NCBI RefSeq assembly: GCF_016613415.1
Contig: NZ_JACWCT010000042.1
Span: 25,697 to 89,696 of the forward strand
Reading direction: 5' to 3'
DNA length: 64,000 nucleotides
Source of the DNA: Methylobacterium ajmalii
GTDB lineage: Bacteria; Pseudomonadota; Alphaproteobacteria; Rhizobiales; Beijerinckiaceae
Shown: positions 20,571-36,858 of the stretch, in pieces
Numbering within the stretch: the first letter of the stretch is position 1
Layout: every line of letters starts with the position of its first letter
Translations under genes and position numbers: made by a program
Notes under the pieces: model-generated
Database searches by the model: none
Seen by the model: the letters and a program-made list of their open reading frames with translations, nothing else
Told to the model about the DNA's origin: nothing

Positions 20571-20608
20571 ACATCAACCGGTTTGCCAGAGCATTGTCGC
20601 AGCCGAAG

Positions 20609-20631
20609 TCCTCCCCCGCTGGGGGGAGGAT
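20609..20631. repeat. short GC-rich palindrome, half-element or terminator
   Basis: TCCTCCCCC and GGGGGGAGGA fold around a short GCT loop. It resembles one terminal arm of the palindromic elements seen at 8, 1786 and 8928, but stands alone. It lies just past the stop of the small secreted protein gene and may act as its terminator. Confidence 0.5.
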
Positions 20632-20648
20632 CCGGGCAGGGGTACGTC

Positions 20649-21119: not shown

Positions 21120-21208
21120 CAATCTCGTTCTCCAGGTGTTGCCCTATCGGAAGGCGCGAAGTGGCGCGCGGCCCCCGGCGGTTCAAGGGCGGGGCGGTCC
21201 GGGGCGCC

Positions 21209-22807
21209 TCACGCCTGCGCGAGGCCGCCGTCGAGGTCGGCGGCCGCCACGAGGTCCCGCGTATAGGCCTCGCGCGGGCGGGCCAGCACCGCGTCGGTCG
21301 GGCCGCGCTCGACCTCGCGGCCGGCGCGCAGGACCAGCACGGTATCGGCGAGCGCGCGCACCACCGCGAGGTCGTGGGAGATGAACAGGTAGGCGAGGCC
21401 GTGCGCCGCCTGGAGGTCGCGCAGCAGGGCGACGATGTCGCGCTGCACCGTGCGGTCGAGGGCCGAGGTCGGCTCGTCGAGGACGACGAGGCGGGGCCGC
21501 AGGATCATCGCCCGAGCGATGGCGATGCGCTGGCGCTGCCCGCCCGAGAAGGCATGCGGGAAGCGGTGGCGCCAGGAGGGATCGAGGCGGACCTCCGCGA
21601 AGGCCTCCGCCGCCCGGGCGTCGCGCTCGGCGGCGGCGAGGTGGGGGGCGTGGACCCGCAGGCCCTCCGCCACGATCTCGCCGGCGGTGAGGCGCGGCGA
21701 GAGCGAGCCCATCGGGTCCTGGAACACCGGCTGGAAGCCGCGGCGCAGGGGGCGGAGCGCCGCCCGGTCGAGGGCCGTCAGGTCGCGGTCCTCGAACCGC
21801 ACCAGGCCGTGGGCGGCGGGTTCGAGGCGGATGAGCGCCCGGCCGAGGCTCGACTTGCCGGAGCCCGATTCGCCGACGACCCCGATCGTCTGGCCGGCCC
21901 GCAGGGTGAGATCGATGCCGCAGACCGCGAGCCGCGGCGGCTCTGCCCGGAGCAGGCGCCGCCGGCCGGGATAGCCGACCGACACGCCGCGCGCCTCCAG
22001 CACCACGGGGGCCTCCGCGGCCACCGGCGCCTTGCGGCCCGCCGGCTCGGCAGCCAGCAGATCGCGGGTCTCGGGCGCCCGCGGGTTCCGGAACAGCGCC
22101 CCGGTCGGCCCGGTCTCGACGAGGCGCCCGGCGCGCAGGACCGCGGTACGGTCGGCGATGCGCCGCACCAGCCGCAGGTCGTGGGTGATGAACAGGAGGG
22201 CGAGCCCGAGGCGCCGCTTGAGGTCGGCGAGCAGCGCCAGGATCTGGGCCTGGACGGTGACGTCGAGCGCCGTCGTCGGCTCGTCGGCGATGAGGAGATC
22301 GGGCTCGCCGGCGAGCGCCATGGCGATCATCACCCGCTGGCGCTCGCCGCCGGAGAGCTCGTGCGGATAGGCCGAGAGGCGCGCCGCTGCATCGCGGATG
22401 CCGACGAGGTCCAGGAGCTCGCGCGCCCGCGCCGCCGCCTGGCGCCGGCCCATGCCCTGATGGGCGCGCAACGGCAGGGCGATCTGGTGGCCGATGGTGA
22501 AGAGCGGGTCCAAAGCCGTCATCGGCTCCTGGAACACCAGGCCGATGCGGGCGCCGCGGATCCGGTCGAGGGCGGGGCGGTCCAGCGCCGTCAGCTCGGT
22601 CCCGTCGAAGCGCACGCTTCCCGAGACCCGCGCCGGGGACGGCAGCAGGCCGAGGATCGCGAGCGCGACCTGACTCTTGCCCGAACCGGATTCGCCGACG
22701 AGGGCCAGGGTCTCGCCGCGTGCGAGGTCGAGGTCGAGACCGTCGAGCGCCGTCACGCCGGCCTCGGGGTAGCGCACGGTCAGGCCGCGCAACTGCAGCA
22801 GGGTCAT
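21209..22807 (-). CDS. ABC importer, double ATPase (YejF type)
   Basis: A 532-residue fused ATPase for a peptide-type ABC importer. Domain 1 has Walker A GESGSGKS (near residue 38), LSGGERQR and [12 protein letters not shown]. Domain 2 has [17 protein letters not shown] and [11 protein letters not shown]. Each half ends with the oligopeptide-transporter extension. It is the last gene of a five-gene operon with its own permeases and binding protein, unlike the orphan paralogue at 2087. It starts four bases after the YejE-like permease gene ends. Substrates of YejABEF-type systems are peptides and microcin C, but here the context suggests haem or a small peptide. Confidence 0.93.
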
Positions 22808-22811
22808 GTGC

Positions 22812-23927
22812 TCACCCCCGCACGTCGAGGGCGTCGCGCAGGCGCTCGCCGAGCAGCGTCAGGGCGAGCAGGCTGGCGACGAGGAACGAGGCCGGCACGA
22901 TCAGCATCCACGGCGCGGTCTCGAGGGAGCGGGCGCCGTCGGCGATCAGGACGCCCCAGCTCGTCGCCGGCTCCTGCACGCCGAGGCCGAGGAACGACAG
23001 GAAGCTCTCGAGCAGGATCACCCGGGGCACCATCAGGGCCGCGAAGGCGACGACGGGGCCGAGCAGGTTGGGCACGACGTGCCGGCGCAGGATCGCGCCC
23101 GTCGAGAGGCCGAGCGCCTCGGCCGCCCGCACGTAGTCGCGCCGGCGGATGGCCTGCGCCTCCGCCCGGACGATGCGGGCCATGTCGAGCCACTCGACGG
23201 CGCCGACCGCGACGAAGATCAGCGCCACCGAGCGGCCGAAGAACACCACCAGCATGATGACGAAGAACACGAAGGGCAGGGAGTACAGGATGTCGACGAG
23301 GCGCATCATCGCCGCGTCGACCCGCCCGCCGAGCGTGCCGGCGAGCGCCCCGTAGACCACCCCGATGCCGAGCGCCACCGCGGTCGCCATCAGGCCGAGC
23401 GCCAGGGACAGGCGGCCCGCCGTGAGCGTGCGGGTGAGGAGGTCGCGCCCGAGCGCGTCGGTGCCGGCGAGGAACCGGAGCGCGCGCAACGGCGCCTCGA
23501 CGGTGAGCCGCCGCCCGTCCTCGGAGCGCCCGAGGAGGCGGGCCTCGCCGAAGGTGTCGGAGCGGGAGAAGAAGGTGAGCACCCGGTCGTCGATCGGCCG
23601 GTCGGAGGCGAGCGTCAGGCGCACCGCCTCCCCGGTGACCGCGACGTCCTCGGCCCGCACCCGCATGCGGAGGGCGAGCCGGTCGAGGGCCGGGCCCACG
23701 GCCTCGGGCTTGGGGTAGAGCGCGAGCGAGGGCGGGACGCCCGGATAATCGTAGTAGAGCCGGTCGTAGGGGTGGCCGGTGACGAAGGGCCCCAGCAGGC
23801 AGGCGAGCGCGACCACGGCGAGGAGCGCCGCGCAGGCCCGCGCGAGCCCATCGCCGAGGAGGCGGCGCCGGGCGCGGGCGAGGAGCGAGGCCTCGGCGAA
23901 GGCGAGGCCGGACGGGGACGGGCTCAC
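22812..23927 (-). CDS. ABC importer permease (YejE/OppC type)
   Basis: A 371-residue inner-membrane permease. After one N-terminal helix (LARACAALLAVVALACLLGPF) there is a long periplasmic insertion of about 130 residues. Five more helices follow, with the EAA loop in DYVRAAEALGLSTGAILRRHVVPN. The long loop is typical of YejE. The GTG start overlaps the TGA of the upstream permease (GTGA), so translation is coupled. A much longer frame to 24233 is out of place because it lies antiphase over the upstream permease gene. Confidence 0.92.
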   Translation of the reverse strand: MSPSPSGLAFAEASLLARARRRLLGDGLARACAALLAVVALACLLGPFVTGHPYDRLYYDYPGVPPSLALYPKPEAVGPALDRLALRMRVRAEDVAVTGEAVRLTLASDRPIDDRVLTFFSRSDTFGEARLLGRSEDGRRLTVEAPLRALRFLAGTDALGRDLLTRTLTAGRLSLALGLMATAVALGIGVVYGALAGTLGGRVDAAMMRLVDILYSLPFVFFVIMLVVFFGRSVALIFVAVGAVEWLDMARIVRAEAQAIRRRDYVRAAEALGLSTGAILRRHVVPNLLGPVVAFAALMVPRVILLESFLSFLGLGVQEPATSWGVLIADGARSLETAPWMLIVPASFLVASLLALTLLGERLRDALDVRG

Positions 23928-24847
23928 CCGAAATCCCTCAGGCGGGGATCGATGAGCGCGCAGGCGAGGTCGGACAGGAGGTTGAGCACGAGGACGAAGA
24001 CCGCGATCAGCACCACCGTGCCGAGCACCAGCGTGTAGTCCCGGTTGATCGCCCCGTCGACGAAGTAGCGCCCGACCCCGGGCAGGCCGAACACCGTCTC
24101 GACCACCACCGAGCCGGTGAGGAGCCCGGCCGCCGCCGGCCCGAGATAGGACACGACGGGGAGCGCCGCGCCGCGCAGGCCGTGGAGCGCCAGGGTGCGG
24201 GGCGGCAGCCCCAGCGCCCGCAGGGTGCGCCAATGCGGCCGGTCGAACACCTCGACGAGACCGGCCCGGAAGAGCCGCGCCACCACGGCGACCTGCGGCA
24301 GCGCCAGGGTGACGACCGGCAGGACGAGGTTCTTCGGGCTGCCGTCGTCCCAGCCGCCGACGGGGAGCCAGTGCAGGGTCAGCCCGAAGGCGATCTGAAG
24401 GAGCGGCGCGACCACGAAGCCCGGCACGGTGAGCGCGAAGGTGCCGAGCGTCGTCACCGCGTGGTCGAGGGCCGAGCCCCGCCGCAGGGCCGACAGCCCC
24501 CCGAGCAGCGTGCCGAGGACGAGCGAGACGAGGAGGGCGAGCCCACCCAGCGTCATCGAGACCGGCAGGCCGCGGGCGAACAATTCGGCCACCGAGAGGT
24601 CGCGCACCGAGAAGGACGGCCCGAGATCGCCGCGCGCCAACGCCGCGAGGTAGCGGCCGTACTGGACGAGCAGCGGCTGGTCGAGGCCGTAGACCCGGCG
24701 CAAATTCTCCATCGCGGCGGCCGGCAGCGGCCGCTCCAAGTCGAACGGGCCGCCCGGCGCCAGCCGCACCAGGAAGAACGACAGGGTGACGACGATGAAC
24801 AGCGTCGGGACGGCCTGGGCGAGGCGGCGCAGCACGTAAGGAATCAT
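23924..24847 (-). CDS. ABC importer permease (YejB/OppB type)
   Basis: A 307-residue permease with six hydrophobic segments, beginning with the classic OppB/DppB lead MIPYVLRRLAQAVPTLFIVV. The EAA motif lies in HWRTLRALGLPPRTLALHGLR, and the C-terminal signature VVVETVFGLPGVGRYFVDG is the standard OppB ending. It is the partner of the YejE-like permease that follows with a 4-base overlap and of the binding protein gene 10 bases upstream. Confidence 0.94.
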   Translation of the reverse strand: MIPYVLRRLAQAVPTLFIVVTLSFFLVRLAPGGPFDLERPLPAAAMENLRRVYGLDQPLLVQYGRYLAALARGDLGPSFSVRDLSVAELFARGLPVSMTLGGLALLVSLVLGTLLGGLSALRRGSALDHAVTTLGTFALTVPGFVVAPLLQIAFGLTLHWLPVGGWDDGSPKNLVLPVVTLALPQVAVVARLFRAGLVEVFDRPHWRTLRALGLPPRTLALHGLRGAALPVVSYLGPAAAGLLTGSVVVETVFGLPGVGRYFVDGAINRDYTLVLGTVVLIAVFVLVLNLLSDLACALIDPRLRDFG

Positions 24848-24857
24848 GCGCGGGGCA

Positions 24858-26462
24858 TCACGCGAGCGACAGCCAGCGCGTCGGCGAGACGCCGCGCAGG
24901 TTTGGCCGGAAGCCGCGCAGGCGCGGGCCGATCAGGTGCTTGTGCCGGTAATGCAGCAGCGGGATCCAGGGCAGGTCGGCGAGGAAGAGTTCTTCCGCAC
25001 GGTAGAGGATCCGGGCGCGCGCCGCGAGGTCGGTCTCGCGGGCGGCCTCGCGCATCAGGGCGTCGTAGGCCGGGTTGGCGTAGCGCCCGGAATTGAAGCC
25101 GTCGTTGCCGCTCTCGACCAGGAACAGGAAGTTCTGCGGGTCGGCGTAATCGGCGAGCCAGCTCATCCGGGCGATGTCGAACGGGCCGCCGTCGCGCAGG
25201 TAGGCGAAATGGGTCTTGGCGTCGGTGGCGGCGAAGGCCGTCGCGACGTTGAGCGGGCGCCACATGTCGGCGATCGCCACCATGGTGTTCCGGTTGTTGT
25301 CGGTGATGTTGTAGCGCAGCTCGACCGCGAGCGGCGTGCCGCCCGGGCCGTAGCCGGCCTCGCGCAGGAGCGCGACCGCCGCATCCTCGCGCTCGAGCGG
25401 CGAGAGGTCCCGGCCCGCCATCGTCGGCGGCGGGAGCGCGTTGTCGAGGCCGGCCGGCGTCAGCGAATAGGCCGGCAGCATCGTCTCGCCCCACACGGCG
25501 TCCGCCAGGAACTCGCGGTCGAGGGCGAGCGACAGGGCCCGGCGCACCCGGGCGTCGCCGAGGGGGCGCTTTCGCACGTTGACCATCAGCGCCAGCACGC
25601 CGAGGGCCGGATTGAGCACCACGCCCGCGCCGAAGCGGGCCTTGAGCGCCTTCACCTGATCGGCCGGCAGGTCCTCGAGGGAATCGATCTCGCCGGCGGC
25701 GAAGCGGCGCACCGCGGCGGCGAGGTCGGGGGTCGGGATGTACTCGACCCGGGGGATCGCGATGCCAGCGGCATCGCGGTGATGCGGGTTGCGGACCGCC
25801 GTGATCCGGTCGTTGGGCGAGAAATCCTTCAGCACGTAGGCGCCGTTCGACACGAGGTGGCCGGGCCGGGTGAAGGCGTCGCCGAAGCGGGCGAGCGACG
25901 GCCGGTGGAGCGGCGTGCTCGCCTGGTGCGCCATCAGCTCGACGAAGTAGGGGGTCGGCTGGGCGAGCCGGATCACCACCGTGAGCGGATCGGGCGCCGC
26001 GACCCCGACGGCGTCCACCGGCATCGCCCCGCGGTTGACCGCCTCGGCGTTCAGGATCGGCGCGAGCACGCTGGCGTACTTCGCCCCCGTCGCCGGGTCG
26101 AGCATGCGCCGGAAGCCGTGCACGACGTCGTCGGCGACGACCGGGTCGCCGTTCGACCAGCGCCCGTCGGGGCGCATCGCGAAGGTCCAGGTGAGGCCGT
26201 CGGCGGAGGTGGTCCAGCCCGCGGCCGCCCCCGGGACCAGGTCGCCGTCGGCGCCGTAGGTGCTCAGGCCCTCGTAGAGGTCGAGGAGGATCGTCGCCTC
26301 GGCCACGGTCGAGGTCTTGTGCGGGTCGAGGGTCTCGGGATCGGCGCCGTTGCCGCGCCGGTAGGCGGCGGGGCCGGCCGCGCGGGCGGGGGCCGCCGCG
26401 CCGAAGGGCACGGCGCCGAAGGATGCGGCGCCGAACCCCGCGAGGATGTCCCGGCGCCGCAC
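24858..26462 (-). CDS. extracellular solute-binding protein, family 5 (peptide/haem type)
   Basis: A 534-residue periplasmic binding protein of the SBP_bac_5 (OppA/DppA) family. A twin-arginine-type signal (RRRDILAGFGAASFGAVPFG, cleaved near ARA) precedes the mature start. Family marks are the early NGADPETLDPHKTSTVAEA, the GRWSNGDPVVADDVVHGFRR region and the C-terminal ILYRAEELFLADLPWIPLL. The start is GTG. It is the second gene of the operon, eight bases after the GlcG-like gene. A Tat signal is unusual for OppA-type proteins but is found in some alphaproteobacterial members. Ligand unknown. Confidence 0.92.
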   Translation of the reverse strand: MRRRDILAGFGAASFGAVPFGAAAPARAAGPAAYRRGNGADPETLDPHKTSTVAEATILLDLYEGLSTYGADGDLVPGAAAGWTTSADGLTWTFAMRPDGRWSNGDPVVADDVVHGFRRMLDPATGAKYASVLAPILNAEAVNRGAMPVDAVGVAAPDPLTVVIRLAQPTPYFVELMAHQASTPLHRPSLARFGDAFTRPGHLVSNGAYVLKDFSPNDRITAVRNPHHRDAAGIAIPRVEYIPTPDLAAAVRRFAAGEIDSLEDLPADQVKALKARFGAGVVLNPALGVLALMVNVRKRPLGDARVRRALSLALDREFLADAVWGETMLPAYSLTPAGLDNALPPPTMAGRDLSPLEREDAAVALLREAGYGPGGTPLAVELRYNITDNNRNTMVAIADMWRPLNVATAFAATDAKTHFAYLRDGGPFDIARMSWLADYADPQNFLFLVESGNDGFNSGRYANPAYDALMREAARETDLAARARILYRAEELFLADLPWIPLLHYRHKHLIGPRLRGFRPNLRGVSPTRWLSLA

Positions 26463-26470
26463 GGCGCGGC

Positions 26471-26905
26471 TCAGGCGCCGGCCTGGGCCTGGAGGCCGGC
26501 GGCCTCGATGCCGGCGAGCGCCGCCTTCTCGTCGTTGTCCGAGGTGTCGCCCGAGATGCCGACCGCGCCAAGGAGCACGCCGTCGCGCTTGATCAGCACG
26601 CCGCCCGGGACCGGGATCAGGCCGGCGGGGCCCGCCACATGGGTCACGGCGGCGATGAAGTAGGCCTGCTCCTCAGCCCGCTTGGCGATGGCGCGCGAGC
26701 CGAGGCCGAGCGCCAGGGCGCCGTTGGCCTTGCCGAGGGCGATCTCGGCCCGCTTGAGGCTGGTGCCGTCCTCGACGGAAGCCGCCTTGAGGGCGCCGCG
26801 GGCGTCGAGCACCACCACCGCCAGGGGCTTGAGCCCGAGGTCGCGGCCGGCCTTCAGGGCGGCGGTCACGAGGGTCGAGGCGGCGTCGAGGGTGAGGTCG
26901 GACAT
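26471..26905 (-). CDS. GlcG/HbpS-family protein
   Basis: A 144-residue protein of the GlcG/HbpS (DUF336) family. Family signatures are LGLKPLAVVVLDARGAL, the central AGPAGLIPVPGGVLI and the C-terminal LLGAVGISGDTSDNDEKAALAG. HbpS in Streptomyces binds haem and senses redox stress; other members sit in glycolate or diol operons. No signal peptide is seen, so it is predicted to be cytoplasmic. As the first gene of an operon with a peptide-type importer, it may bind or process the imported ligand, and haem is one candidate. That role is an inference from position. Confidence 0.88.
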   Translation of the reverse strand: MSDLTLDAASTLVTAALKAGRDLGLKPLAVVVLDARGALKAASVEDGTSLKRAEIALGKANGALALGLGSRAIAKRAEEQAYFIAAVTHVAGPAGLIPVPGGVLIKRDGVLLGAVGISGDTSDNDEKAALAGIEAAGLQAQAGA

Positions 26906-26992
26906 GGTGTCGGGAACTCCGGGTCGTCGGGTCGGCGGACCGCGCGGGCGGGCCGCCATCCTCGGGTCCCCGGGGCTTAACCTGCCGGGCCC

Positions 26993-27022
26993 GGGGATGC
27001 CAGGGCTAGGGGATGCCAGGGC
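26993..27022. repeat. 14-bp direct repeat
   Basis: GGGGATGCCAGGGC occurs twice, separated by TA, in the 202-base divergent gap between the GlcG-like gene and the methyltransferase gene. A pair of direct sites on about one and a half helical turns could bind a regulator, or could be replication slippage. Nothing else was seen in the gap. Confidence 0.5.
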
Positions 27023-27107
27023 CGGGGTGCCGGCCGCCGGGGCCCCGCGTTGCCGCAGCGGGACCGCCGTGATACCCGCCCCGCGCACCATCGGCGCCTT
27101 GAGGGAC

Positions 27108-27956
27108 ATGTCGGACCGCGACCCCGCTGCCGCGGGCCTCTCCGAGGGCCTGCACCTCACGCACACGATCGACCTGCCCGGCCACGGGACGCTCGCGGGC
27201 GAGATCGACCTGCGCGAGAATTTCTCGGCCTGCCTCGGCGACGTGCCGCTGCGCGGCCGGCGGGTGCTCGACGCCTGCGCGCTCAGCGGCTTCACCAGCT
27301 TCGCCATGGAGGCCCTGGGCGCCGAGGTGGTGTCCTACGACCGGGCCGGGGGCCGGCACTGGGACCTGGTGCCGTTCTGCGACGGCGCTCCGGCCTCCCA
27401 CCTCGTGCCGCTCCTCGACGAACACCAGGCCCGGATCGCCCGCGCCTACCGCCACTGCCACGCCGCCCTGGGCTCGCGGGCCGAGCGGATCGAGGGCGAC
27501 CTCTGCGCCGTGCCCGAGGCGATCGGCCCCGTCGACCTCGCGGTTCTGGGGGCGCTGGCGCATGTCCGCGACCCGTTCCGGGCGCTGCACAGCGCGCTGC
27601 GCCTCGTCCAGGAGACCGCCGTGGTCACCGGCATGCTGCCGCGCCGGCCGTGGTACGACCCGGGCCGGCTCGTCGACGACGGCTGGCTCGGCGACGCCCG
27701 GCACGGGACGTTCGCGCGCGAGCGGCTGGCGGACCGGCGCGCCGACGCCCCCCTGGCCTTCCTGCCCCGCAGCGGCCAGGGCAACCCGTTCGCGGCCTGG
27801 TGGCAGATCCCGCCGCGGACGGTCGTGCGCTGGCTTGAGGTCATCGGCTTCGGCGAGACGCGGATCGCCTATCACCGCCGCCCGCTCGCCGGCCGGATGC
27901 GCACGCTCTACGCGGTGGTCGGCCGCCGGACGCAGGCGAACCACGCGGCGATCTGA
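27108..27956 (+). CDS. class I SAM-dependent methyltransferase
   Basis: A 282-residue Rossmann-type methyltransferase. Motif I is VLDACALSGFTSFAMEALGA near residue 53, followed by the acidic VVSYD at motif II. Motif IV is in LAVLGALAHVRDPFRALHSA near residue 147, a phrase like the LGVLYHLRDP of CmoB-type and related enzymes. Unusual is Ala-Cys-Ala where most enzymes have Gly-x-Gly in motif I; SAM binding may be weakened or use a different geometry. It is followed after 11 bases by the AlgX-like gene, so the two probably act on the same product, perhaps a surface glycan. Substrate unknown. Confidence 0.75.
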   Translation: MSDRDPAAAGLSEGLHLTHTIDLPGHGTLAGEIDLRENFSACLGDVPLRGRRVLDACALSGFTSFAMEALGAEVVSYDRAGGRHWDLVPFCDGAPASHLVPLLDEHQARIARAYRHCHAALGSRAERIEGDLCAVPEAIGPVDLAVLGALAHVRDPFRALHSALRLVQETAVVTGMLPRRPWYDPGRLVDDGWLGDARHGTFARERLADRRADAPLAFLPRSGQGNPFAAWWQIPPRTVVRWLEVIGFGETRIAYHRRPLAGRMRTLYAVVGRRTQANHAAI

Positions 27957-27967
27957 GAAGGACGGCG

Positions 27968-28924
27968 ATGTTCCATATCGGGCAGGACGGCTGGCTGTTT
28001 CTGACCGTCGGCACCAACCGGGCGGCGGACCTCTACGCCGACACCCCGGAGGTCTGGCGCATGCTGCGGGGCTGGCGCCGGCTGCTGCTCGCCCGCGCCG
28101 ACAAGGCCGCGCGGCTCGACGCCTGCTACCTGCACCTGTCCTCGCCCGAGAAGCTGAGCGTATACGACCACAAGTTCTTCGGTCCGGGCCCGGTCCGGGC
28201 CTCGCGCTCGCCGACGCGCCGGCTGGGGCAGTTGCTACGTCTCACGCCCAGGGGGCGCCGGCTGTGGGTCGACGCGCTGACGCCGCTCCGGGCCGGGCGC
28301 GACGCGGCCGAGCTGTACTACCGGACCGACACGCACTGGACCTCGCAGGGCACCTTCGTCGCCTACCGGGCGATCTGCGTGGCCTGCGGCGCGACACCGA
28401 TCGCCGACCTCCTGGAGACGCGGCCGGCCCATGCCGCGACCCGCCGCATGGATCTCGGCGAGAAGCTGCAGTTTCCGGTGACCGAGACCTCGACCTACCG
28501 GGCGATCCGCCGCACCGCCTGGGTCGCGGAAGCAGGCCGCCTCTACGGGCTGGCGGAAGCCCACCCGGAGCTCGCGCTCCATACCGGCGTGCGGGTCGGA
28601 TTCCGCAACGGTGACCCGGCGGCGGATCCGCGCTCGCTGCTCGTGTTCGGCTCGTCCTATTCGGGCTACGGGGGCCTGGGGCTCACCAGCATGCTCGCCG
28701 AGACGTTCCGGCGCGTCGACTTCGTCTGGTCGGCGGAGGTCGACTGGGGCCTCGTCGCAAGGCTGCGCCCGGCGATCCTGCTCACGGAATCGGCCGAGCG
28801 CTACATGGCCCGGCTGCCCGACGACGATCGCTTCGACGTCGGGCGCTACGAGGACGAGAAGCTCGCCCGGCTCGCCGCCGAGCATCCGGGGCTCGACATC
28901 CTCCCGCGCGTGCGCTCGCGGTAG
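27968..28924 (+). CDS. AlgX/AlgJ-like SGNH-type protein
   Basis: A 318-residue protein like the AlgX/AlgJ SGNH domain, which acetylates exopolysaccharides. Marks are the N-terminal GQDGWLFL, the catalytic-type YYRTDTHWTSQGTFVAY near residue 118 with the Asp-x-His dyad, and the nucleophile region LLVFGSSYSGYG near residue 224. No signal peptide is visible, so unlike AlgX it may act in the cytosol or on a lipid-linked precursor. Similar cytosolic versions occur next to methyltransferases in glycan clusters. Its last 79 bases overlap the 3' end of the aminotransferase gene on the other strand. Confidence 0.75.
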   Translation: MFHIGQDGWLFLTVGTNRAADLYADTPEVWRMLRGWRRLLLARADKAARLDACYLHLSSPEKLSVYDHKFFGPGPVRASRSPTRRLGQLLRLTPRGRRLWVDALTPLRAGRDAAELYYRTDTHWTSQGTFVAYRAICVACGATPIADLLETRPAHAATRRMDLGEKLQFPVTETSTYRAIRRTAWVAEAGRLYGLAEAHPELALHTGVRVGFRNGDPAADPRSLLVFGSSYSGYGGLGLTSMLAETFRRVDFVWSAEVDWGLVARLRPAILLTESAERYMARLPDDDRFDVGRYEDEKLARLAAEHPGLDILPRVRSR

Positions 28925-29781
28925 GCGTCCCGCAGCGGCCCCAGGACACGGCGCAGGTCGCGGGAGCCGAGGTCGTAGCGATGCGCCCCGATGCGCGCCA
29001 CCGGGACGACCTCGTAGGCCGTGCCCGTTGCGAACGCGCCGTCGAACGCGGCGACCCCGGCGAGCGGCACCTTCGCGATCTCGACCCGGATCGACAGGGC
29101 CGAGGCCAGGGCGACGATCTCCTGCCGGGTCAGGCCGTCGAGGGCGGAATCCGCAGGCGGCGTCACGAGGCCGCCATCCCGCACGAAGAAGATGTTGGCG
29201 CCGGTCAGCTCGGCCACGTGCTCGCCGTCGGGCGCGCAGACGAGGGCGTCGTCGAAGCCCTCCGCCCGGGCCGCGGCGGCGTTCATCGACCCGATCGCGT
29301 AGAGCCCCGACAGCTTGGCCTGGAGCGGCCACATGGTCGGTGCCGGGCGCCGCCAGGGACCGAGGCCGAGCGACAACCCGGCCTCGGCGGCATCGGGATG
29401 AGGGCCAGACCACTCCCAGCCCGCCACGGCGAGGTGGCAATCGCCGGAGCGGCCGACGATTCCGAGCGCGTCGGCGCCCCGCCACGCGATGGGCCGGATG
29501 TAGGCGTCGCCGAACCGGCACGCTTCGGCATAGGCCTCGATCTCGGCGACGAGCTGATCCACGCCGTAGGGAAGCGCGATACCGACCGTCCGGCACGAAT
29601 AGGCCAGCCGCTCGCAATGCTCGCGCAGCTTGAACGGCCGCCCGTCATAGACCCGCACCCCCTCGAAGGCGGCAGTCCCGTAATGCAGCCCGTGGCTGAG
29701 GACGTGCAGCCTCGCCTCGGGCCAGGCGACGTGGCGCCCATCGAGCCAGATCGCGCCGTCGCGCAGGTGGAGGGGGATCAT
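28846..29781 (-). CDS. fold-type IV PLP aminotransferase of the bac-like operon
   Basis: A 311-residue class IV aminotransferase (branched-chain/D-amino-acid type). The PLP lysine is Lys156 in LQAKLSGLYAIG. HGLHYGTAAFEGVRVY near residue 30 and AELTGANIFFVRDG are family hallmarks, and AFATGTAYEVVPV closes the active site. It is the last gene of the operon and starts inside the exporter stop (ATGA). In bacilysin operons the amino donor step is done by BacF, a fold-type I enzyme; here a fold-type IV enzyme could make the same amino acid with L- or D-configuration. The alternative, a housekeeping IlvE, is less likely from context. The C-terminus is extended over the convergent gene. Confidence 0.85.
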   Translation of the reverse strand: MIPLHLRDGAIWLDGRHVAWPEARLHVLSHGLHYGTAAFEGVRVYDGRPFKLREHCERLAYSCRTVGIALPYGVDQLVAEIEAYAEACRFGDAYIRPIAWRGADALGIVGRSGDCHLAVAGWEWSGPHPDAAEAGLSLGLGPWRRPAPTMWPLQAKLSGLYAIGSMNAAAARAEGFDDALVCAPDGEHVAELTGANIFFVRDGGLVTPPADSALDGLTRQEIVALASALSIRVEIAKVPLAGVAAFDGAFATGTAYEVVPVARIGAHRYDLGSRDLRRVLGPLRDAYRERTRGRMSSPGCSAASRASFSSS

Positions 29782-30710
29782 CGCGAGGCCTGCCGTGAGA
29801 GGAGGGAGCGGTCGAACGTCGACATGGCGACGCCGCCGAGCGCCAGGCATCCACCCAGGATCTGCTGCGCCGTGGGCGCGTGGCCGAGGACGAGGGCCGC
29901 CAGGGCGACCGCGAAGGGCGGCATCAGGAAGGTGAAGATCCCCGTCCGCGACGCGCCGAGCGCCTTCACGGCCTGATTCCACCACAGATAGGCCAGCAGC
30001 GTCGCGAAGATCGCCAGGTAGGCGATCGACAGCCAGAAGGTCGTCGAGGCGTTCGCAAGGTCGACAGGCTCGCCGAGCAGGAACGGCATCGGGAGCAGAA
30101 AGACCATCCCGAACCCGAACGACAAGGTGGTCGTCTCGAGCGAGTCCAGCCGGTCCGGGGAGAACTTGGCGGAGACGGCGTAGCAGGAGAACGCGAAGGC
30201 GGACAGGACGATCAGGACGTTGGACGACAGGGCGACGGAACCGCCCGCATCGTGCGAGATGACGAGGATCGCCCCCACGAGGCCGAGGCCGAGGCCGAGC
30301 CACAGCTTCGCCGGCGGCCGCTCCCCGAGCACGGCTGCGCCCAGGAGGGCGGTGAAGACCGGCTGCGTCGTCGGGATCAGGAGCGCGGCGTTCGCCGCCG
30401 TGGAGTGGCGCAGTCCGAGATGCAGCAGGATCGTGTAGGCCGCCACGCCGAAGAACCCCATGGCGGCCAGCACGGCCCAGTCCCGCACCGGAAGATCCCG
30501 CAGGCGCGGCCACAGCGGCTCCCGCTGCCTTGCGGAGACCAGGCACAGCGCGACGTAGCACGCCGTCGTGACGACGAACCGCACGGCCGCCGTCGTCGCG
30601 GCGGGCTGCTCGTGAAGCGCGATCTCGCTCGCCACGAAGGTTCCCGCCCAGAAGATCTGCACCAGTACCAGCTTGAGAACAATGCTCGTTTTTTTGCCGA
30701 GATCCACCAT
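29778..30710 (-). CDS. DMT/EamA-family exporter
   Basis: A 310-residue inner-membrane protein of the drug/metabolite transporter superfamily with ten hydrophobic segments in two EamA repeats. The first begins VLVQIFWAGTFVASEIAL, the second SNVLIVLSAFAFSCYAVSAK. Such proteins export amino acids and metabolites, so it probably expels the product of the bac-like pathway, the part BacE (an MFS protein) plays in Bacillus. The ATG at 30710 has AGGA nine bases upstream; a TTG at 30740 would start inside the dyad operator. It overlaps the aminotransferase gene by four bases. Confidence 0.9.
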   Translation of the reverse strand: MVDLGKKTSIVLKLVLVQIFWAGTFVASEIALHEQPAATTAAVRFVVTTACYVALCLVSARQREPLWPRLRDLPVRDWAVLAAMGFFGVAAYTILLHLGLRHSTAANAALLIPTTQPVFTALLGAAVLGERPPAKLWLGLGLGLVGAILVISHDAGGSVALSSNVLIVLSAFAFSCYAVSAKFSPDRLDSLETTTLSFGFGMVFLLPMPFLLGEPVDLANASTTFWLSIAYLAIFATLLAYLWWNQAVKALGASRTGIFTFLMPPFAVALAALVLGHAPTAQQILGGCLALGGVAMSTFDRSLLSRQASR

Positions 30711-30739
30711 CTTATCGATCCTATGGCAATAACAACGCA

Positions 30740-30758
30740 ATATTACCTAGGGTAATAT
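30740..30758. promoter_or_regulatory. 19-bp dyad ATATTACC-TAG-GGTAATAT
   Basis: A perfect 8-3-8 inverted repeat in the 79-base gap between the bacC-like gene and the exporter gene. It is AT-rich in GC-rich surroundings and lies 30 bases before the exporter start, so it is a strong candidate operator for an internal promoter serving exporter and aminotransferase. No regulator gene is adjacent. Confidence 0.65.
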
Positions 30759-30789
30759 AAAATTGCCAGGGGATTTTCACAAATCATGT

Positions 30790-31543
30790 TCATGCCAGCA
30801 GGCCGCCATCGACGGATAGGCAGGCGCCGGTGGTGAAGGAGGCTCGCGCCGAGGCGAGGAAGTACACCGCCTCCGCAACCTCTCCGGCCTGCGCCAGGCG
30901 GCCGAGGGGATGAAGCCGCTCTCGCCGTCGCCGCCCCTCGACCGCGTCGGGCTCCACGGCCAGCGCGCGGTCGGTCATGGGCGTGTCGACGATGGCCGGC
31001 GCGACGGCATTCACGCGGATGCCGGAGGCCGCGAGTTCCGAGGCGAATGCCCTGGTCAGCGACAGCACGGCGGCCTTGGTCGCGCTGTAGACCCCGTCTC
31101 CGGGCCAGGTCCGGAACGACGCCACGGAGGCCAGGTTGACGATGCTGCCGCCGCCCGCCCGGACCAGATCCGGCACCGCAGCGCGCGAGCACAGGAACAC
31201 CGACCGGACGTTCACCGCGAACAGTCTCTCGTAATCCGCGAGGCTGAAGCCGGTCAGCGGGCCGGTGATCTCGATGCCGACATTGTTGACGAGCGTATCG
31301 ACGGGGCCGCAGGCCGACGCGATGCAGCCGAAGGCGCGTTGCACGCCGGCCTCGTCGGACACGTCGGCCGCGAATGCATCGGCGCGCCCGCCGTGGGCTT
31401 CGATCTCCGCGACGACCGCGGCGGCCGCGCCCTCGTCGATGTCGATGGCGGCGACCCTGGCGCCGCGTCCGGCGAAGCAGAGCGCAGTCGCGCGCCCGAT
31501 ACCGGATCCGGCACCCGTGACGATGACGGTCCGGGCGGGTCAT
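30790..31543 (-). pseudogene. BacC-like SDR dehydrogenase with an apparent 1-nt frameshift at the start
   Basis: A short-chain dehydrogenase of about 250 residues once one base is removed. The NAD site [16 protein letters not shown], the NNVGIEI motif, the catalytic Ser and YSATK, and the C-terminal SFTTGACLSVDGGLL are all intact. NNVGIEI-x-G-P and VDTP after the active site resemble Bacillus BacC, which oxidises dihydroanticapsin to anticapsin. The expected ATG at 31543 overlaps the bacB-like stop (ATGA), but after five codons the frame must shift by one base, near two GGG runs at 31533-31539, to enter the domain. No other start gives the Rossmann motif; a GTG at 31362 would delete it. It is therefore either truly broken or an assembly indel. 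Confidence 0.8.
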
Positions 31544-32238
31544 GCGCGCTCCCGCTTCGGGCGGAGGTTCCACCGGGGCGGGATGAAGACGTTCAGCGAG
31601 GTGGCGTCCCGGCTCTCGTCGTTCCAGCCCGAATGCGGCACGTATTCCGGCGCATGGTAGACCACCTCCGGCCCGAATGGCCGGATCTCCTCGCCAACCT
31701 GCATCGTGTAGGTGCCGCTCACGCCGATTCCGATCTGTATGCCGCGATGGGAGTGGAGCGGCATCCTGGCGCCGGGCTGCAGGCTGGAGAGCATGATCTC
31801 GAACCACGGGCCGACGAAGAAGCTGACCCCCAGGCCGCCCTTGACCGCGCGCATCTCGGTGAGCGACAGGGCGACGGCGCCCGGCGAGCTGCGGGTCAGC
31901 TGCCCCTCCTCGCCCGGGACCGGCTTGCGCCTGATGTCTACCGTCACGGCCGTCGCTCCGCTCTCGTTGCGCGCTGCATGCGGCGTGCCACCTGGCGCGA
32001 AGTAGGCCGTCTCGAGCGCGGGGATGGGATAGTCGCGCCCGTCGACCTCCATGATGAAGCCGCCGCGGAGACACAGGCCGATCTGGTGCTCGTCGTGGAC
32101 GTGCTGAGGCACGACGGCGCCCGGAGCGACCTCGTTGATCATGACGACGGTCCCGGCCGGATCGTCGAGCGCGTACAGAGACGTGCCCACTCCTGGAAAG
32201 GGCTGGATGTTTCGCCCCTCGGGAAAGTAGACGCTCAT
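31540..32238 (-). CDS. bacB: BacB-like bicupin
   Basis: A 232-residue double cupin. Each half carries the unusual metal set His-x-His-x3-Gln plus a later His: His46, His48, Gln52 and His87; then His162, His164, Gln168 and His202. BacB of Bacillus, which isomerises the BacA product dihydro-hydroxyphenylpyruvate, has the same HxHx3Q pair. Phrases such as [15 protein letters not shown] and PHAARNES, and [11 protein letters not shown] and FIPPRWN, follow BacB closely in my memory of that sequence. It overlaps the BacA-like gene by four bases upstream and the SDR gene by four downstream, matching bacABC order. A much longer upstream frame is rejected because it would run antiphase through the bacA-like gene. 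Confidence 0.88.
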
Positions 32239-32807
32239 GCCTTCCGCCCCCTCTGCGCGAAGACATTCCAAGTCATCTGAATGACGATGCCGGTCGTCGA
32301 GTGTTCGAGCCCGAGTTCCTCGATGGTCGCGAGGTTGCACAACGCCATGTCGGCCTCGCGCGTCAAGACGGCCCGCGCCGCGGCGGCGGTGGAACGGCGA
32401 TGCGCGACGCGGTATCGCGACCCCACCGGCAAGATCCGGGGAATCAGGTCGAACGGGGCGGGGTGGCTCGCGATGAGGGGGCCGCTCTCCGGCTGGGCCG
32501 ACCCGGAGCCGCCGAAGACACCACCCTCGCCGCTGCGCCACGCGAGGTGATAGGGCGGCGTGTCGTGACAGAAGCACCCGATCACTTCCAGGCGCGCATC
32601 CATGAAGAATGTGTTTGCGCCTGCAAATGCACTCGGGACGATGATGAGACGGCCACCATCGCGAGCGTCGCCCCGAAGCGCGTCTTGAAAGTCTTCGTGG
32701 AGGACGATCGGCATCTCACGGGACATGACCGCAAGAAAATGTTTAGCGGCAATGTGGCCGCTGGTCGATTCCGGTCCCAGCGTGTGCAGGGACTCGAATA
32801 ATCCCAT
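32235..32807 (-). CDS. bacA: BacA-like prephenate decarboxylase
   Basis: A 190-residue protein resembling the BacA/AerD/SalX non-aromatising prephenate decarboxylases, which turn prephenate into dihydro-hydroxyphenylpyruvate instead of phenylpyruvate. It keeps the prephenate-dehydratase-type opening HTLGPESTSGHIAAKHF, then LHEDFQDAL, IIVPSAFAGANTFFMDARL, CFCHDTPPYHLAWR, IASHPAPFDLI and a final MTWNVFAQRG. These align by eye with remembered BacA. The ACT domain and TRDT active site of true dehydratases (PheA) are absent, supporting decarboxylase over dehydratase. It is the first gene of the operon; the ribosome site is weak and the leader is AT-rich. Confidence 0.87.
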   Translation of the reverse strand: MGLFESLHTLGPESTSGHIAAKHFLAVMSREMPIVLHEDFQDALRGDARDGGRLIIVPSAFAGANTFFMDARLEVIGCFCHDTPPYHLAWRSGEGGVFGGSGSAQPESGPLIASHPAPFDLIPRILPVGSRYRVAHRRSTAAAARAVLTREADMALCNLATIEELGLEHSTTGIVIQMTWNVFAQRGRKA

Positions 32808-33380
32808 ATCCGTGCCGCCCTTACGCCGGCCGAACCCGACTTCGACGGGCTGCTACCTGAACAACATGCTTGTCGGCAATGATTCCCTTGAATTGTCATG
32901 CATCTCGTCAGAGCTTTCGAGCCAGGACTTGATGCAACCAACGATGTGATATCCATTATTAAGTGTCAAATTTAAATATTGGAAATCTGATTTTCTAAAA
33001 ATAAGATTATTTATGATTATTTTTTCAGCGCCAGCGCATAATTTATCGATATTCTGCCGCTTTTTTTCGCCGACCGCGAAGGATCTTCGATCGCAATCGG
33101 GATCTACCGCTGGGTCATCCGGGATGCTGACGCATCGGTTCGATCTCGGGCAGGCCCGAGATCGACGGAGCCGTCAACCCATCTCGAATGTTCGACACCA
33201 AGCCCCGAAGTCCGAGCCATTGGACTTGGCTAAGGGCTTGGCGAAAATTCGAGAACGGAACCAAAGGTCGTTTTCTTTTGACCGTTGGTATCAGTTGTTC
33301 ACCGGCTTCGCGGCCCCTGGCGAACGAAACCGTTTCGCGAGCCACGGCGGTAAATACCACCCTGGATAGCGAGTTTCTAT
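32808..33380. other. AT-rich gene-poor gap upstream of the bac-like operon
   Basis: About 570 bases between bacA and purU. The part at about 32940-33069 is dominated by A and T, sharply unlike the rest of the window. A TTGACA hexamer lies on the minus strand at 32964-32969, without a good -10 partner. A strong hairpin, CGATCTCGGG and CCCGAGATCG around CAGG, lies at 33141-33164. Frames of 118 plus-strand residues and a long minus-strand frame through here look degenerate. The composition suggests an insertion boundary or an acquired promoter region. Confidence 0.55.
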
Positions 33381-34244
33381 TTAGTCGGTGAACACCACGG
33401 TCTTGCGGCCGTTGGCGATCACCCGGTCCTCCAGCACGTAGCGCACCGCGCGGGCCAGCACCCGGCGCTCGATGTCCCGGCCCTTGCGCACGAGGTCGTC
33501 CGGGGTGTCGCGGTGCGAGATGCGCTCGACGTCCTGCTCGATGATCGGCCCCTCGTCGAGATCGCCGGTGACGAGGTGCGAGGTGGCGCCGATCAGCTTC
33601 ACGCCGCGCTCGTGCGCCTGGTGGTAGGGCCTGGCGCCCTTGAAGCCGGGCAGGAACGAGTGGTGGATGTTGATGCAGCGGCCCGCGAGCTTGTGCGAGA
33701 GGTCGTCCGACAGGATCTGCATGTAGCGGGCGAGGACCACGAGCTCGGCGCCGGTCTCCTCGACGAGGCGCCACAGGGCGGCCTCCTGCTGGGGCTTGGT
33801 GTCCGGCGTGATCGGCAGGTGGTGGAACGGCACCCCGGCGAGATCCGCCGCGCCGTAGATCTCCCGCGGGTAGTTCGAGACCACCGCGCAGACCTCCATC
33901 GGCAGTTCGCCGATGCGCCAGCGGTAGAGCAGGTCGTTGAGGCAATGGTCGAAGCGCGAGACGAGCAGCATCACGCGCCGCCGCTCGGCCCGGTCGCGTA
34001 AGCTCCAGTCCATGCCGAAGCGCTGGGCCACCGCCTCGAAGCCGGACGCCAGCGCGTCCCGCCCCGGCGCGCCCTGCACGGGGTTGAACACGATTCGCAT
34101 GAAGAAGCGGCCGGTCTCGACGTCGTCGAATTGCTGCGCGTCGAGGATGTTGCACCCGGCCTCGAACAGGTAGGCCGAGACGCCGGCCACGATCCCCGGG
34201 ACGTTGGTGCAGGAGAGGGAGAGGACGTAGGAGGGGGTGGTCAT
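33381..34244 (-). CDS. purU: formyltetrahydrofolate deformylase
   Basis: PurU, 287 residues, hydrolyses 10-formyl-THF to formate and THF, balancing one-carbon pools and feeding PurT; it is important in methylotrophs and in photorespiration-like metabolism. An N-terminal ACT domain ([24 protein letters not shown]) precedes the formyltransferase domain with its catalytic Asn-His in [15 protein letters not shown] and the Asp in [13 protein letters not shown]. Length is normal. It is the first feature beyond the AT-rich gap, monocistronic, with its stop at the gap edge. Confidence 0.96.
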
Positions 34245-34293
34245 GGGTGCCCGGGCCGGAAACGAGAATCGGCCTCCGCCCTAGGCGATCGTC

Positions 34294-34932
34294 TCAGGCG
34301 CGTGAAGCCCCCGGGCCCGCTTCCCTGACGAAAGCGACCCGGTCCCAGGTCACGCCGGGCCGGCCGAGCTGCGCATCCTCGTCCGTCCGGCACAGGACGC
34401 ACCGCAGGCCATGCACCCGCGCGAGGTCGATCGTCTCGGCCGCCGACACGTCGAACATCCGCCGCCCCTCCGGCACGGGGCCGTGGCGCAGCGACAAGGC
34501 CATCACGCCCCCGACCCGCATCAGGGCCACGAGACGCGGCATCGCGCGCCGCCGCTCGGCCTCGTCGAGATGCATCCAGACGGCGGTGAGCATCACGACG
34601 TCGACGCTGTCGCCGCGTCCGGAGAGGGCGGCGAGGTCCGGCAGGCCGTCATCCACCCAGTCGATCAGCGGGGACGGATGCAGGGCGACCGCCTGCCGGC
34701 GCAATTCGAGCGTGGGCTCGACGGCGGTGACGCGGTAGCCGAGGGCGGCGAAGCCCGCGGCATCCCGCCCGGTCCCGGCGCCGATGTCGAGGACGTGCGC
34801 CGGCGGCGCCGGCAGCAGCGGCAGGATCGCCGCGTGGATGTCCGCGAAGGCGATACTTTCGTATTGCGAGACCAGCCGCTCGGCCTCGGCGGCGTAGCCG
34901 GCCGTACCCCGGGGAGCGCTCCCGTCCGTCAC
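34294..34932 (-). CDS. class I SAM-dependent methyltransferase
   Basis: A 212-residue methyltransferase. Motif I is HVLDIGAGTGRDAAGFAALG near residue 48, motif II VTAVEPT, and motif IV VDVVMLTAVWMHLDEAERR. Motif I is canonical, so it should bind SAM. The GTG start overlaps the stop of the ABC-F gene (GTGA), which couples them. The pairing with a ribosome-associated ATPase suggests a translation-related substrate, but small molecules are equally possible. Substrate unknown. Confidence 0.85.
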   Translation of the reverse strand: MTDGSAPRGTAGYAAEAERLVSQYESIAFADIHAAILPLLPAPPAHVLDIGAGTGRDAAGFAALGYRVTAVEPTLELRRQAVALHPSPLIDWVDDGLPDLAALSGRGDSVDVVMLTAVWMHLDEAERRRAMPRLVALMRVGGVMALSLRHGPVPEGRRMFDVSAAETIDLARVHGLRCVLCRTDEDAQLGRPGVTWDRVAFVREAGPGASRA

Positions 34933-36797
34933 GCCTCCGCCTCCAGTTCCCCGCTCACCTCCAGCCACTCCTCCTCGGCGCTGCCGAGAGCCGCGGCGGC
35001 CTCGGCCCGCATGCGGGCGAGCTCGCCGGCCTTGGCGGCGTCGGTGCGGAAGGCGGTGCCGTCGGCGAGCGCCGTGTCGATCTTGGCGATGGCGGCCGAG
35101 AGCTTCGCCATCCTGGCCTCCACCGCCTCGAGCTTGCGGCGCAACGGCGCGAGCGCCGCCCGGCGCTCGGCGTTGGAGCGGCGCTCCACCGCCTTGGCGC
35201 CGCCGGTCGGCTCCTGGGCCTTGGCGGTCTCGGCCTCGGGGCCGGCCAGCACCAGGCGGCGGTAATCGTCCATGTCGCCGTCGAACGGCTTCACGGTGCC
35301 GTTGCGCACCAGCCACAGCCGGTCGGCGCAGGCCTCGACCAGGAAGCGGTCGTGGCTCACCAGGATGACGGCGCCCTCGTAGTCGTTGATCGCCTCGACC
35401 AGCGCTTGGCGGCTCTCGATGTCGAGGTGGTTGGTCGGCTCGTCGAGGATCAGGAGGTGGGGGCCGTGGAAGGCGGCGAGCCCCATCAACAGCCGCGCCT
35501 TCTCGCCGCCGGAGAGCTGCGAGACCGGGGTGTCGGCCTTGTGGCCGGGAAAACCGAGGCGCGCCGCCGCGGCACGCGCCTTCGCCTCCGGCACGTCCGG
35601 CATCAGGTCGCGGACATGGGCGTAGGCGCTCTCGGCCGGGCGCAATTCGTCGAGCTGGTGCTGGGCGAAGTAGGCGACGTTCATCTTGCCCCAGCGCCGC
35701 ACCTCGCCCGAGAGCGGATCGAGCCGGCCGCCGATGAGCTTGCAGAAGGTCGACTTGCCGTTGCCGTTGGCCCCGAGCAGGGCCACCCGGTCATCGGGGG
35801 CGAGGGTGAGGTTGAGGCCCGTCAGCACCGTGCGGTCGGGATAGCCGGCCTGGACCCGCTCCATCGCGACCAGCGGCGGGGACAGGGCGCGCTCCGGGCT
35901 CGGCAGGTGGATCACCGGCACGTCGTCCTCGATGAGCGCCGCGATCGGCTCCATCTTGGCGAGCCGCTTCATCCGCGACTGGGCCTGGCGCGCCTTGGTG
36001 GCCTTGGCCTTGAAGCGGTCGACGAAGCTCTGGAGGTGGGCGCGCTCGGCCTCCTGCTTCACCCGCGCCTTCGCTTGCAGCATGCGCTTCTCGGCGAGCT
36101 GGCGGGCGAACGAGGTGTAGCCGCCGCGATAGAGCGTGAGCTTGCCGCGATCGAGGTGGAGGATGTGGTCGACGGAGGTGTCGAGGAGGTCGCGGTCGTG
36201 GCTGATGATCACCGCGGTGCGCGGATAGCGCTCGAGGTAGTCGTAGAGCCAGAGCGTGCCCTCGATGTCGAGGTAGTTGGTCGGCTCGTCGAGGAGCAGG
36301 AGGTCGGGCTCGGAGAACAGCACGGCGGCGAGCGCCACCCGCATCCGCCAGCCGCCGGAGAAGTCGGAGCAGGGCCGGGCTTGCGCTTCCGCATCGAAGC
36401 CGAGGCCGTGCAGGATCGCGGCGGCCCGCGCCGGGGCCGAATGGGCGTCGATGTCGACGAGCCGGGTCTCGATCTCGGCCCGGCGCAACCCGTCGGCGGT
36501 CTCGGCCTCCGCCATGAGGCGCGTGCGCTCGGTATCGGCGGCGAGCACCACCGCGTGCAGGGTCTCGGGGCCGGCCGGGGCCTCCTGCGCCACGCCGCCG
36601 ATCCGCGTGCCCTTCGGCAGGCCGATCGAGCCGCCCTCGGTCGGGATCTCGCCCTGGATGATGCGGAACAGGGTGGTCTTGCCGGCGCCGTTGCGCCCGA
36701 CGATCCCGACCCGCGCCCGCTCGGGCAGGGCGAAGCTGGCTTGGTCGAGGATCAGGCGGTCGCCGATCCGGTAGGTGAGGTCGTTCACGCGGAGCAT
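34929..36797 (-). CDS. ABC-F family ATPase (YheS/Uup-like)
   Basis: A 622-residue soluble protein with two ABC domains and no membrane part. The first domain has GRNGAGKTT near residue 35, FSGGWRMRVALA and LLLDEPTNYLD. The second has GANGNGKST, LSGGEKARL and LILDEPTNHLD. The arginine/lysine-rich interdomain linker contains FVDRFKAKATKARQAQSRMKRL, the P-site tRNA interaction motif. A C-terminal coiled coil (RRKLEAVEARMAKLSAAIAKI) resembles YheS and Uup. Such proteins act on stalled ribosomes. The LSGGW in domain 1 is the usual ABC-F variant. It is divergent from the sugar dehydrogenase gene. Confidence 0.94.
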   Translation of the reverse strand: MLRVNDLTYRIGDRLILDQASFALPERARVGIVGRNGAGKTTLFRIIQGEIPTEGGSIGLPKGTRIGGVAQEAPAGPETLHAVVLAADTERTRLMAEAETADGLRRAEIETRLVDIDAHSAPARAAAILHGLGFDAEAQARPCSDFSGGWRMRVALAAVLFSEPDLLLLDEPTNYLDIEGTLWLYDYLERYPRTAVIISHDRDLLDTSVDHILHLDRGKLTLYRGGYTSFARQLAEKRMLQAKARVKQEAERAHLQSFVDRFKAKATKARQAQSRMKRLAKMEPIAALIEDDVPVIHLPSPERALSPPLVAMERVQAGYPDRTVLTGLNLTLAPDDRVALLGANGNGKSTFCKLIGGRLDPLSGEVRRWGKMNVAYFAQHQLDELRPAESAYAHVRDLMPDVPEAKARAAAARLGFPGHKADTPVSQLSGGEKARLLMGLAAFHGPHLLILDEPTNHLDIESRQALVEAINDYEGAVILVSHDRFLVEACADRLWLVRNGTVKPFDGDMDDYRRLVLAGPEAETAKAQEPTGGAKAVERRSNAERRAALAPLRRKLEAVEARMAKLSAAIAKIDTALADGTAFRTDAAKAGELARMRAEAAAALGSAEEEWLEVSGELEAEA

Positions 36798-36858
36798 GGC
36801 GGCGTTGTGGGGGCGGCGCGACCGGGTGGCAAGGGGCAGACCGGTGAGGGGCCCCGTG

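Follow-up and report, generated by a model that had tools for sequence, protein, structure and literature searches.

A BacA-BacB operon without BacG or a ligase

The 64,000-nucleotide stretch of Methylobacterium ajmalii DNA analyzed here (contig NZ_JACWCT010000042.1; hereafter the window, to whose positions all coordinates refer; GC 72.7%) contained five minus-strand genes, running from 32807 to 28846. They encode, in this order, a BacA-like protein, a BacB-like bicupin, a short-chain dehydrogenase/reductase (SDR), an EamA exporter, and a fold-type IV aminotransferase, the same five genes in the same order as in an earlier first-pass annotation of the window made from the sequence alone. The operon is a BacAB variant of the known bac systems and not a complete bacilysin or anticapsin operon. 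It probably represents a horizontally acquired minimal BacAB pathway that has neither BacG nor a ligase and makes an exported free amino acid of the dihydrotyrosine type. A bolder version is put forward tentatively: an alphaproteobacterial BacA-BacB pathway without BacG and ligase, rebuilt on an IlvE-type aminotransferase and an EamA exporter, acquired as a small insertion between the end of purU and a neighboring gene, and delivering a new free amino acid of the dihydrotyrosine or epoxyketone type.

We infer every reaction of this pathway, the order of its steps, the export, the product, and the expression from the genes. BacA would decarboxylate prephenate without aromatizing it, BacB would isomerize and may oxidize the resulting dihydro-hydroxyphenylpyruvate, the IlvE-type fold-type IV aminotransferase would convert the keto acid to the amino acid, and the EamA protein would export it. 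The operon has no BacG and no ligase and its SDR frame is displaced, so that the likeliest product would be a free dihydrotyrosine-type amino acid; this would also be the simplest product, since BacA, BacB, the aminotransferase, and the exporter are open frames. Anticapsin is less likely, and if the SDR were made, a ring-oxidized or ring-reduced relative (anticapsin-like) would be possible. One paper on Photorhabdus states that a prephenate decarboxylase and a transaminase yield the antibiotic dihydrophenylalanine (PMC5897657). The likeness, drawn from that description, lies in a minimal decarboxylase-plus-transaminase logic leading to a free non-proteinogenic amino acid, and the precedent suggests that these two activities can suffice for a free amino-acid antibiotic. 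A free amino-acid product is plausible here.

Several results were counted in favor of the minimal pathway: the homology, metal ligands, and fold of BacB; the homology and prephenate dehydratase (PDT) fold of BacA; the joint occurrence of BacA and BacB in all 28 comparison loci and in the window; the lack of a BacD match and of a close BacG; the 4-base overlap of the EamA and aminotransferase genes; and a clean insertion whose empty site was found in two genomes of the genus.

Organization of the operon

The features of the region were as follows.

32808..33380, minus strand: AT-rich leader of bacA (GC 50%)
32235..32807, minus strand: BacA-like protein, assigned to the prephenate decarboxylase family by blastp, AlphaFold model, and Pfam (190 aa)
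31540..32238, minus strand: BacB-like bicupin with both metal sites intact, assigned by PDB sequence match, ligands, and fold (232 aa)
31531..31543, minus strand: reading frame displaced at the 5' end of the SDR gene; the ATGA overlapping the bacB stop lies in another frame (frame analysis)
30790..31530, minus strand: SDR, BacC-like, possible orthologue of BacC (246 codons as read; no in-frame start as assembled)
30741..30757, no strand assigned: perfect inverted repeat TATTACC-NNN-GGTAATA, possible operator (pattern count in the window)
29778..30710, minus strand: EamA/drug-metabolite transporter (DMT) family exporter (310 aa; EamA E 1.6e-43)
28846..29781, minus strand: branched-chain (IlvE)-type aminotransferase of fold type IV (311 aa; Aminotran_4 E 5e-44)
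28902..33381, no strand assigned: 4,480-bp insertion with the operon and its leader (blastn against L075 and L076; GC)
33140..33293, no strand assigned: repeat

The first-pass annotation had joined all but one pair of neighboring genes by 4-base overlaps. The ATGA overlaps of bacA with bacB and of the EamA gene with the aminotransferase gene were confirmed, but the third, of bacB with the SDR gene, did not hold, as its ATG was out of the SDR frame. This displacement had been missed, as had the insertion.

The gap between the SDR and EamA genes (30711-30789) contained the perfect inverted repeat of 30741-30757, placed before the exporter gene. The pattern, chosen after the sequence had been seen, matched once in the window against 0.02 expected, and a promoter-like match, of which 0.6 would be expected by chance, overlapped it. 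The repeat is a possible operator candidate for the exporter gene; by Pfam, the insert has no regulator among its five genes.

Identification of the BacB-like and BacA-like proteins

BacB was the firmest identification of the operon, judged by sequence and model. The BacB-like protein showed 34% identity with Bacillus BacB (blastp E 4e-36 in a small set), and its best phmmer match over the PDB was BacB (3h7j, E 3e-30), ahead of AerE (4e-13) and quercetinases (3e-5). All eight metal ligands of the two HxHx3Q sites claimed in the first-pass annotation were present: His46, His48, Gln52, and His87 in one site, and His162, His164, Gln168, and His202 in the other. The structure model (predicted local distance difference test, pLDDT, 86.1) matched solved BacB with a Z score of 31.5 over 217 residues, AerE (5zbe) with 29.0, and other cupins with at most 22.6, including quercetinase with 20.9; the alignment behind the model consisted of BacBs, which biases it toward the BacB fold. 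A better alignment with quercetinase-type cupins had been named beforehand as a result that would speak against BacB, and it was not obtained: a quercetinase-type assignment was rejected on both the sequence and the fold scores.

The BacA-like protein showed 32% identity with BacA of B. spizizenii (blastp E 9e-24 in a small set) and 29-35% with 12 aligned relatives, and was equally far from BacA kin in loci without BacB. It consists of a lone PDT-like domain of 190 aa (BacA type, about 200 aa) and is sequence kin of BacA. The AlphaFold model (pLDDT 85.9) had the PDT fold, with 3mwb at Z 14.0 over 172 residues and the first non-PDT entry at 10.3. The relatedness to BacA and to BacB proposed in the first-pass annotation was thus upheld in sequence and fold, and the blastp similarity to both exceeded chance by far. 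A phmmer search of the BacA-like protein against the PDB gave no match at E 0.001, and profile A2 gave one weak match there (E 0.34). PF00800 scored 16.5 bits (E 0.008), under its cut-off of 25.2, and NF008865 scored 11.8 bits against a cut-off of 219; an assignment as prephenate dehydratase (PheA/PDT) was rejected on these scores. PF00800 matched each of the 13 aligned family members with an E value of at most 1, down to 2e-11 for the best. In clade tests with 27 of the 39 rows left after removal of L055 (a second copy of the window protein), with nine Bacillus rows, two Streptomyces rows, and L054 dropped, no constraint was rejected, whether the window protein was grouped with the BacAB group (p 0.36), with the fold-IV group plus L008 (p 0.35), or with two divergent alphaproteobacterial BacAs (p 0.52). 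Sequence and model together indicated that the BacA-like protein is related to prephenate decarboxylases but has diverged strongly from them.

Comparison with other BacA-BacB loci and known systems

When 84,980 genomes were scanned with two BacB peptide patterns, 46 stretches were obtained and 28 loci confirmed. The loci come from Bacillus, Tumebacillus, Rummeliibacillus, Streptomyces, Actinomadura, and a Thermomonosporaceae bin, organisms of the phyla Bacillota and Actinomycetota. The patterns were strict and therefore missed more distant loci; the window genome itself was not returned. Counted within the fetched stretches, some of them cut by contig ends, BacA and BacG occurred in all 28 loci, BacC in 27, BacF in 26, BacD in 17, and a detectable BacE in nine. 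All BacB metal ligands were kept in 17 of 17 BacBs from Bacillota and in one of 12 actinobacterial BacBs (L025); in each of the other 11 (L006, L029-L038), two or more of the four ligands of site 1 were missing and site 2 was kept.

As the first-pass annotation had stated, BacD was absent: none was in the operon, and the assembly gave no match at E 0.001 in a search run without a positive control. Its absence loses its standing as a special feature, since 11 of the 28 loci, all actinobacterial, also had no BacD; the lack of a ligase is ordinary. The claimed absence of BacG likewise stood, as the operon had none; outside it, the closest match in the genome to Rummeliibacillus BacG had 31% identity, against 41-67% identity between B. 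spizizenii BacG and the BacGs of more distant bac loci. The exporter and the fold-type IV aminotransferase had been described as foreign to known clusters. This held for the 28 BacA-BacB loci, none of which had a homologue of either protein, but not for clusters without BacB, in which fold-type IV aminotransferases adjoined BacA (L003, L004, L005, L007, and L009) and EamA genes lay near it (L008 and L010). It is the absence of BacG together with this exporter and aminotransferase that sets the window apart from the 28 loci.

In the bacilysin route, according to PMC9147277, BacA decarboxylates prephenate without aromatization, and BacB isomerizes the product, with an oxidation ascribed to it as well. 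BacG carries out a reduction and BacF a transamination, BacC oxidizes the ring alcohol, and BacD ligates alanine. The Bacillus bacABCDEF-bacG cluster (B. spizizenii, L016) resembles the window in its BacA-BacB-SDR order and in keeping the eight BacB ligands, whereas the window lacks BacG, BacD, BacE, and a fold-I BacF, has EamA and the IlvE-type fold-type IV aminotransferase, and carries an SDR with 35% identity to BacC and a displaced frame. The actinobacterial BacA-BacB-BacG-BacC-BacF clusters without BacD (L006, L025, L030, L033, and others) share the absence of the ligase with the window, and a free amino acid is therefore expected from both; their 11 matched BacCs are 42-46% identical to the window SDR. 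Unlike the window, they keep BacG and BacF, and most of their BacBs lack site-1 ligands, all of which the window BacB has. In the five clusters with BacA beside a fold-type IV aminotransferase (Pantoea, Pseudomonas, Photobacterium, and Streptomyces), no BacB was matched, the other accessory enzymes differed, and the aminotransferases were 29-35% identical to that of the window. These clusters contained an AMP-ligase-like gene, the aminotransferase, BacA, and an ornithine-cyclodeaminase-like gene; four of the five also had an annotated Dabb protein, and three a LysE exporter. The aeruginosin enzymes AerD, AerE, and AerF (Choi moiety) are related through AerE, the second-best fold match of the window BacB; AerD-F supply a nonribosomal peptide synthetase, whereas the window protein lies nearer to BacB by the PDB scores given above.

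Published papers name prephenate decarboxylases for bacilysin, salinosporamide, and aeruginoside (PMC10157211), name bacilysin for Bacillus strains only (PMC10100984, PMC12551452), and include one paper containing both "anticapsin" and "Methylobacterium" (PMC10598611). By titles and abstract openings, in a coverage mostly outside subscription journals, we found no description of a BacAB cluster in Methylobacterium.

The displaced SDR frame and its relation to BacC

The ATG within the ATGA that overlaps the bacB stop (31543) did not belong to the SDR frame, which opened directly after the bacB TGA and had no ATG, GTG, or TTG before 31362, beyond the TGAGSGIG motif; a whole SDR could therefore not be produced by ordinary initiation from the sequence as assembled. 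The assembly comprised 192 contigs, and the displacement may be either a mutation or an assembly error. The sequence motifs of the SDR, including TGAGSGIG, were intact.

The SDR showed 35.5% identity with BacC of B. spizizenii (172 bits, vs. 73 bits with its BacG) and 42-46% with the 11 actinobacterial BacCs and the Tumebacillus BacC listed. These last gave its best scores (184-207 bits), and the best SDR in 240 genomes of the class reached 182.5. In a tree of the window SDR and 60 sequences selected from 94 matches (61 rows), 20 BacCs clustered without the window SDR (Shimodaira-Hasegawa-like approximate likelihood ratio test, SH-aLRT, 96), and its top identity, 47%, was with another SDR of the same genome (L081). 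A BacC clade including the window SDR was not rejected (p 0.60; likelihood gain 4.9), nor was an alphaproteobacterial group of the window SDR with L081 and four others, chosen after the tree had been seen (p 0.795; likelihood gain 13.4). The window SDR matched seven of 30 BacC-diagnostic columns; 32 other SDRs matched up to 12, with a median of four for the whole set. The SDR is BacC-like in sequence and, by score, tree, and signature, a possible orthologue of BacC. The first-pass reading of this gene as BacC was weakened by the signature, the unsettled tree, and the displaced frame.

Exporter and aminotransferase

The exporter matched TIGR00950 (E 3.5e-29) and the model of the aromatic amino acid exporter YddG (E 7e-10), both under the cut-offs; at this subthreshold level, the EamA protein appears akin to amino-acid exporters. 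The aminotransferase was an Aminotran_4 protein of fold IV and not a fold-I BacF. Matches to it at E 1e-45 occurred in 167 of 240 class genomes, with 42-47% identity to the best listed, and the second match in its own genome was 41% identical. Its PF01063 match stopped at residue 264.

Insertion and distribution

Among 30 relatives searched, two genomes of the genus had an empty site: purU (TIGR00655) was 97% identical, the neighbors were the same, and nothing lay between them. By blastn, window positions 20607-28901 and 33382-36836 aligned with L075, ending at 9799 and starting at 9797, and positions 28895 and 33383 corresponded to 13764 and 13773 of L076. The GC content of the insert was 66.7%, vs. 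74.5 and 73.1% in the flanks. These comparisons indicated that the operon and its leader are an insertion, probably acquired horizontally, between the end of purU and the neighboring gene. The five genes of the insert included no mobile-element gene, and the 10 rows listed of 76 plasmid records covered at most 16% of it.

The first-pass annotation had proposed a check of conservation across Methylobacterium, and the operon did not prove to be conserved: BacA was found in one of 111 genomes of the genus, its own. With the own genome counted each time, BacA was found in two of 385 genomes of the class and, by profile, in three of 397 of the order. The BacB profile at E 1e-10 matched one of 398 phylum genomes sampled, again its own. 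At E 0.001, BacB matches occurred in 14 of 110 genus genomes, all except the own at E 5e-7 or weaker and with 28-38% identity.

Alternative explanations

Several points weigh against the minimal BacAB pathway. The structure models of BacA and BacB were built on alignments of BacA and BacB kin. In the BacA tree, the window branch was 5.2 changes per site long and its placement was unsettled; the substrate could therefore have changed. A BacG query gave 48 matches in the genome at E 0.001, the BacD search had no positive control, and unrelated enzymes acting in trans might conceivably supply the reduction or ligation. The aminotransferase resembles housekeeping relatives of IlvE. The left edge of the insertion fell in its codon 294, so that its last 17 codons are host DNA of the neighboring gene. 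The displaced SDR frame hints at a possible decay of the operon.

A foreign cluster under loss, with a broken SDR, a replaced aminotransferase end, and no product, would account for the missing SDR start, the insertion edge inside the aminotransferase gene, and the presence of BacA in a single genus genome. Such a dying operon is improbable, since the other four frames are open, BacB keeps its eight ligands, and the PF01063 match ends before the replaced tail. Somewhat less improbable, though still unlikely, is a complete anticapsin pathway, in which the displaced frame stems from a faulty assembly, the SDR functions as the equivalent of BacC, the BacG step is performed by this or another genomic SDR, and free anticapsin is the product. 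It agrees with the intact SDR motifs and BacB metal sites, with SDR scores that are best against actinobacterial and Tumebacillus BacCs and exceed the best of the class genomes, with a BacC clade that was not rejected, and with the existence of ligase-free actinobacterial clusters. The few matching BacC-diagnostic columns, the clustering of 20 BacCs without the SDR, and its closest identity to L081 argue against it, as do the larger likelihood gain of the post hoc L081 group, which was not rejected either, and the lack here of a BacG, present in all 28 BacAB loci compared. Reading of BacB and the SDR as one protein across the TGA fits the shared frame with its single separating stop; it is very improbable, as BacB was a separate open reading frame in the 28 loci and a displaced start is simpler.

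If the minimal BacAB pathway is correct, it would extend BacAB chemistry beyond Bacillota and Actinomycetota, to which all other BacA-BacB loci found belong, into Methylobacterium, and it would show which components of the anticapsin route can be exchanged: the aminotransferase fold, the exporter, and the reductase. A natural BacAB cluster without BacG would offer a direct test of the products of BacA and BacB, including oxidative chemistry at the two metal sites of BacB. A broken or misassembled SDR is a warning against pathway calls from gene names alone.

Other observations

The repeat at 33140-33293, which ends in what reads as an inverted repeat, had a counterpart in L076 (82%) and partial ones at two further sites in the genome of the window. 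Three pattern matches for BacA kin in viral contigs were not confirmed (0 of 3). In the order of the window genome, divergent BacA-like genes were present in L053 (7719-10013, genome G1132), next to genes for a 4HBT thioesterase and an acyl-CoA dehydrogenase, and in L054 (genome G1154). In another alphaproteobacterial family (genome G125), L010 9696-13773 encoded a BacA-like protein and, after it, DUF6421, EamA, and an ATP-grasp protein carrying a LAL_C2 (L-amino acid ligase) domain, and by its gene content looks like a separate BacA-plus-ligase cluster.

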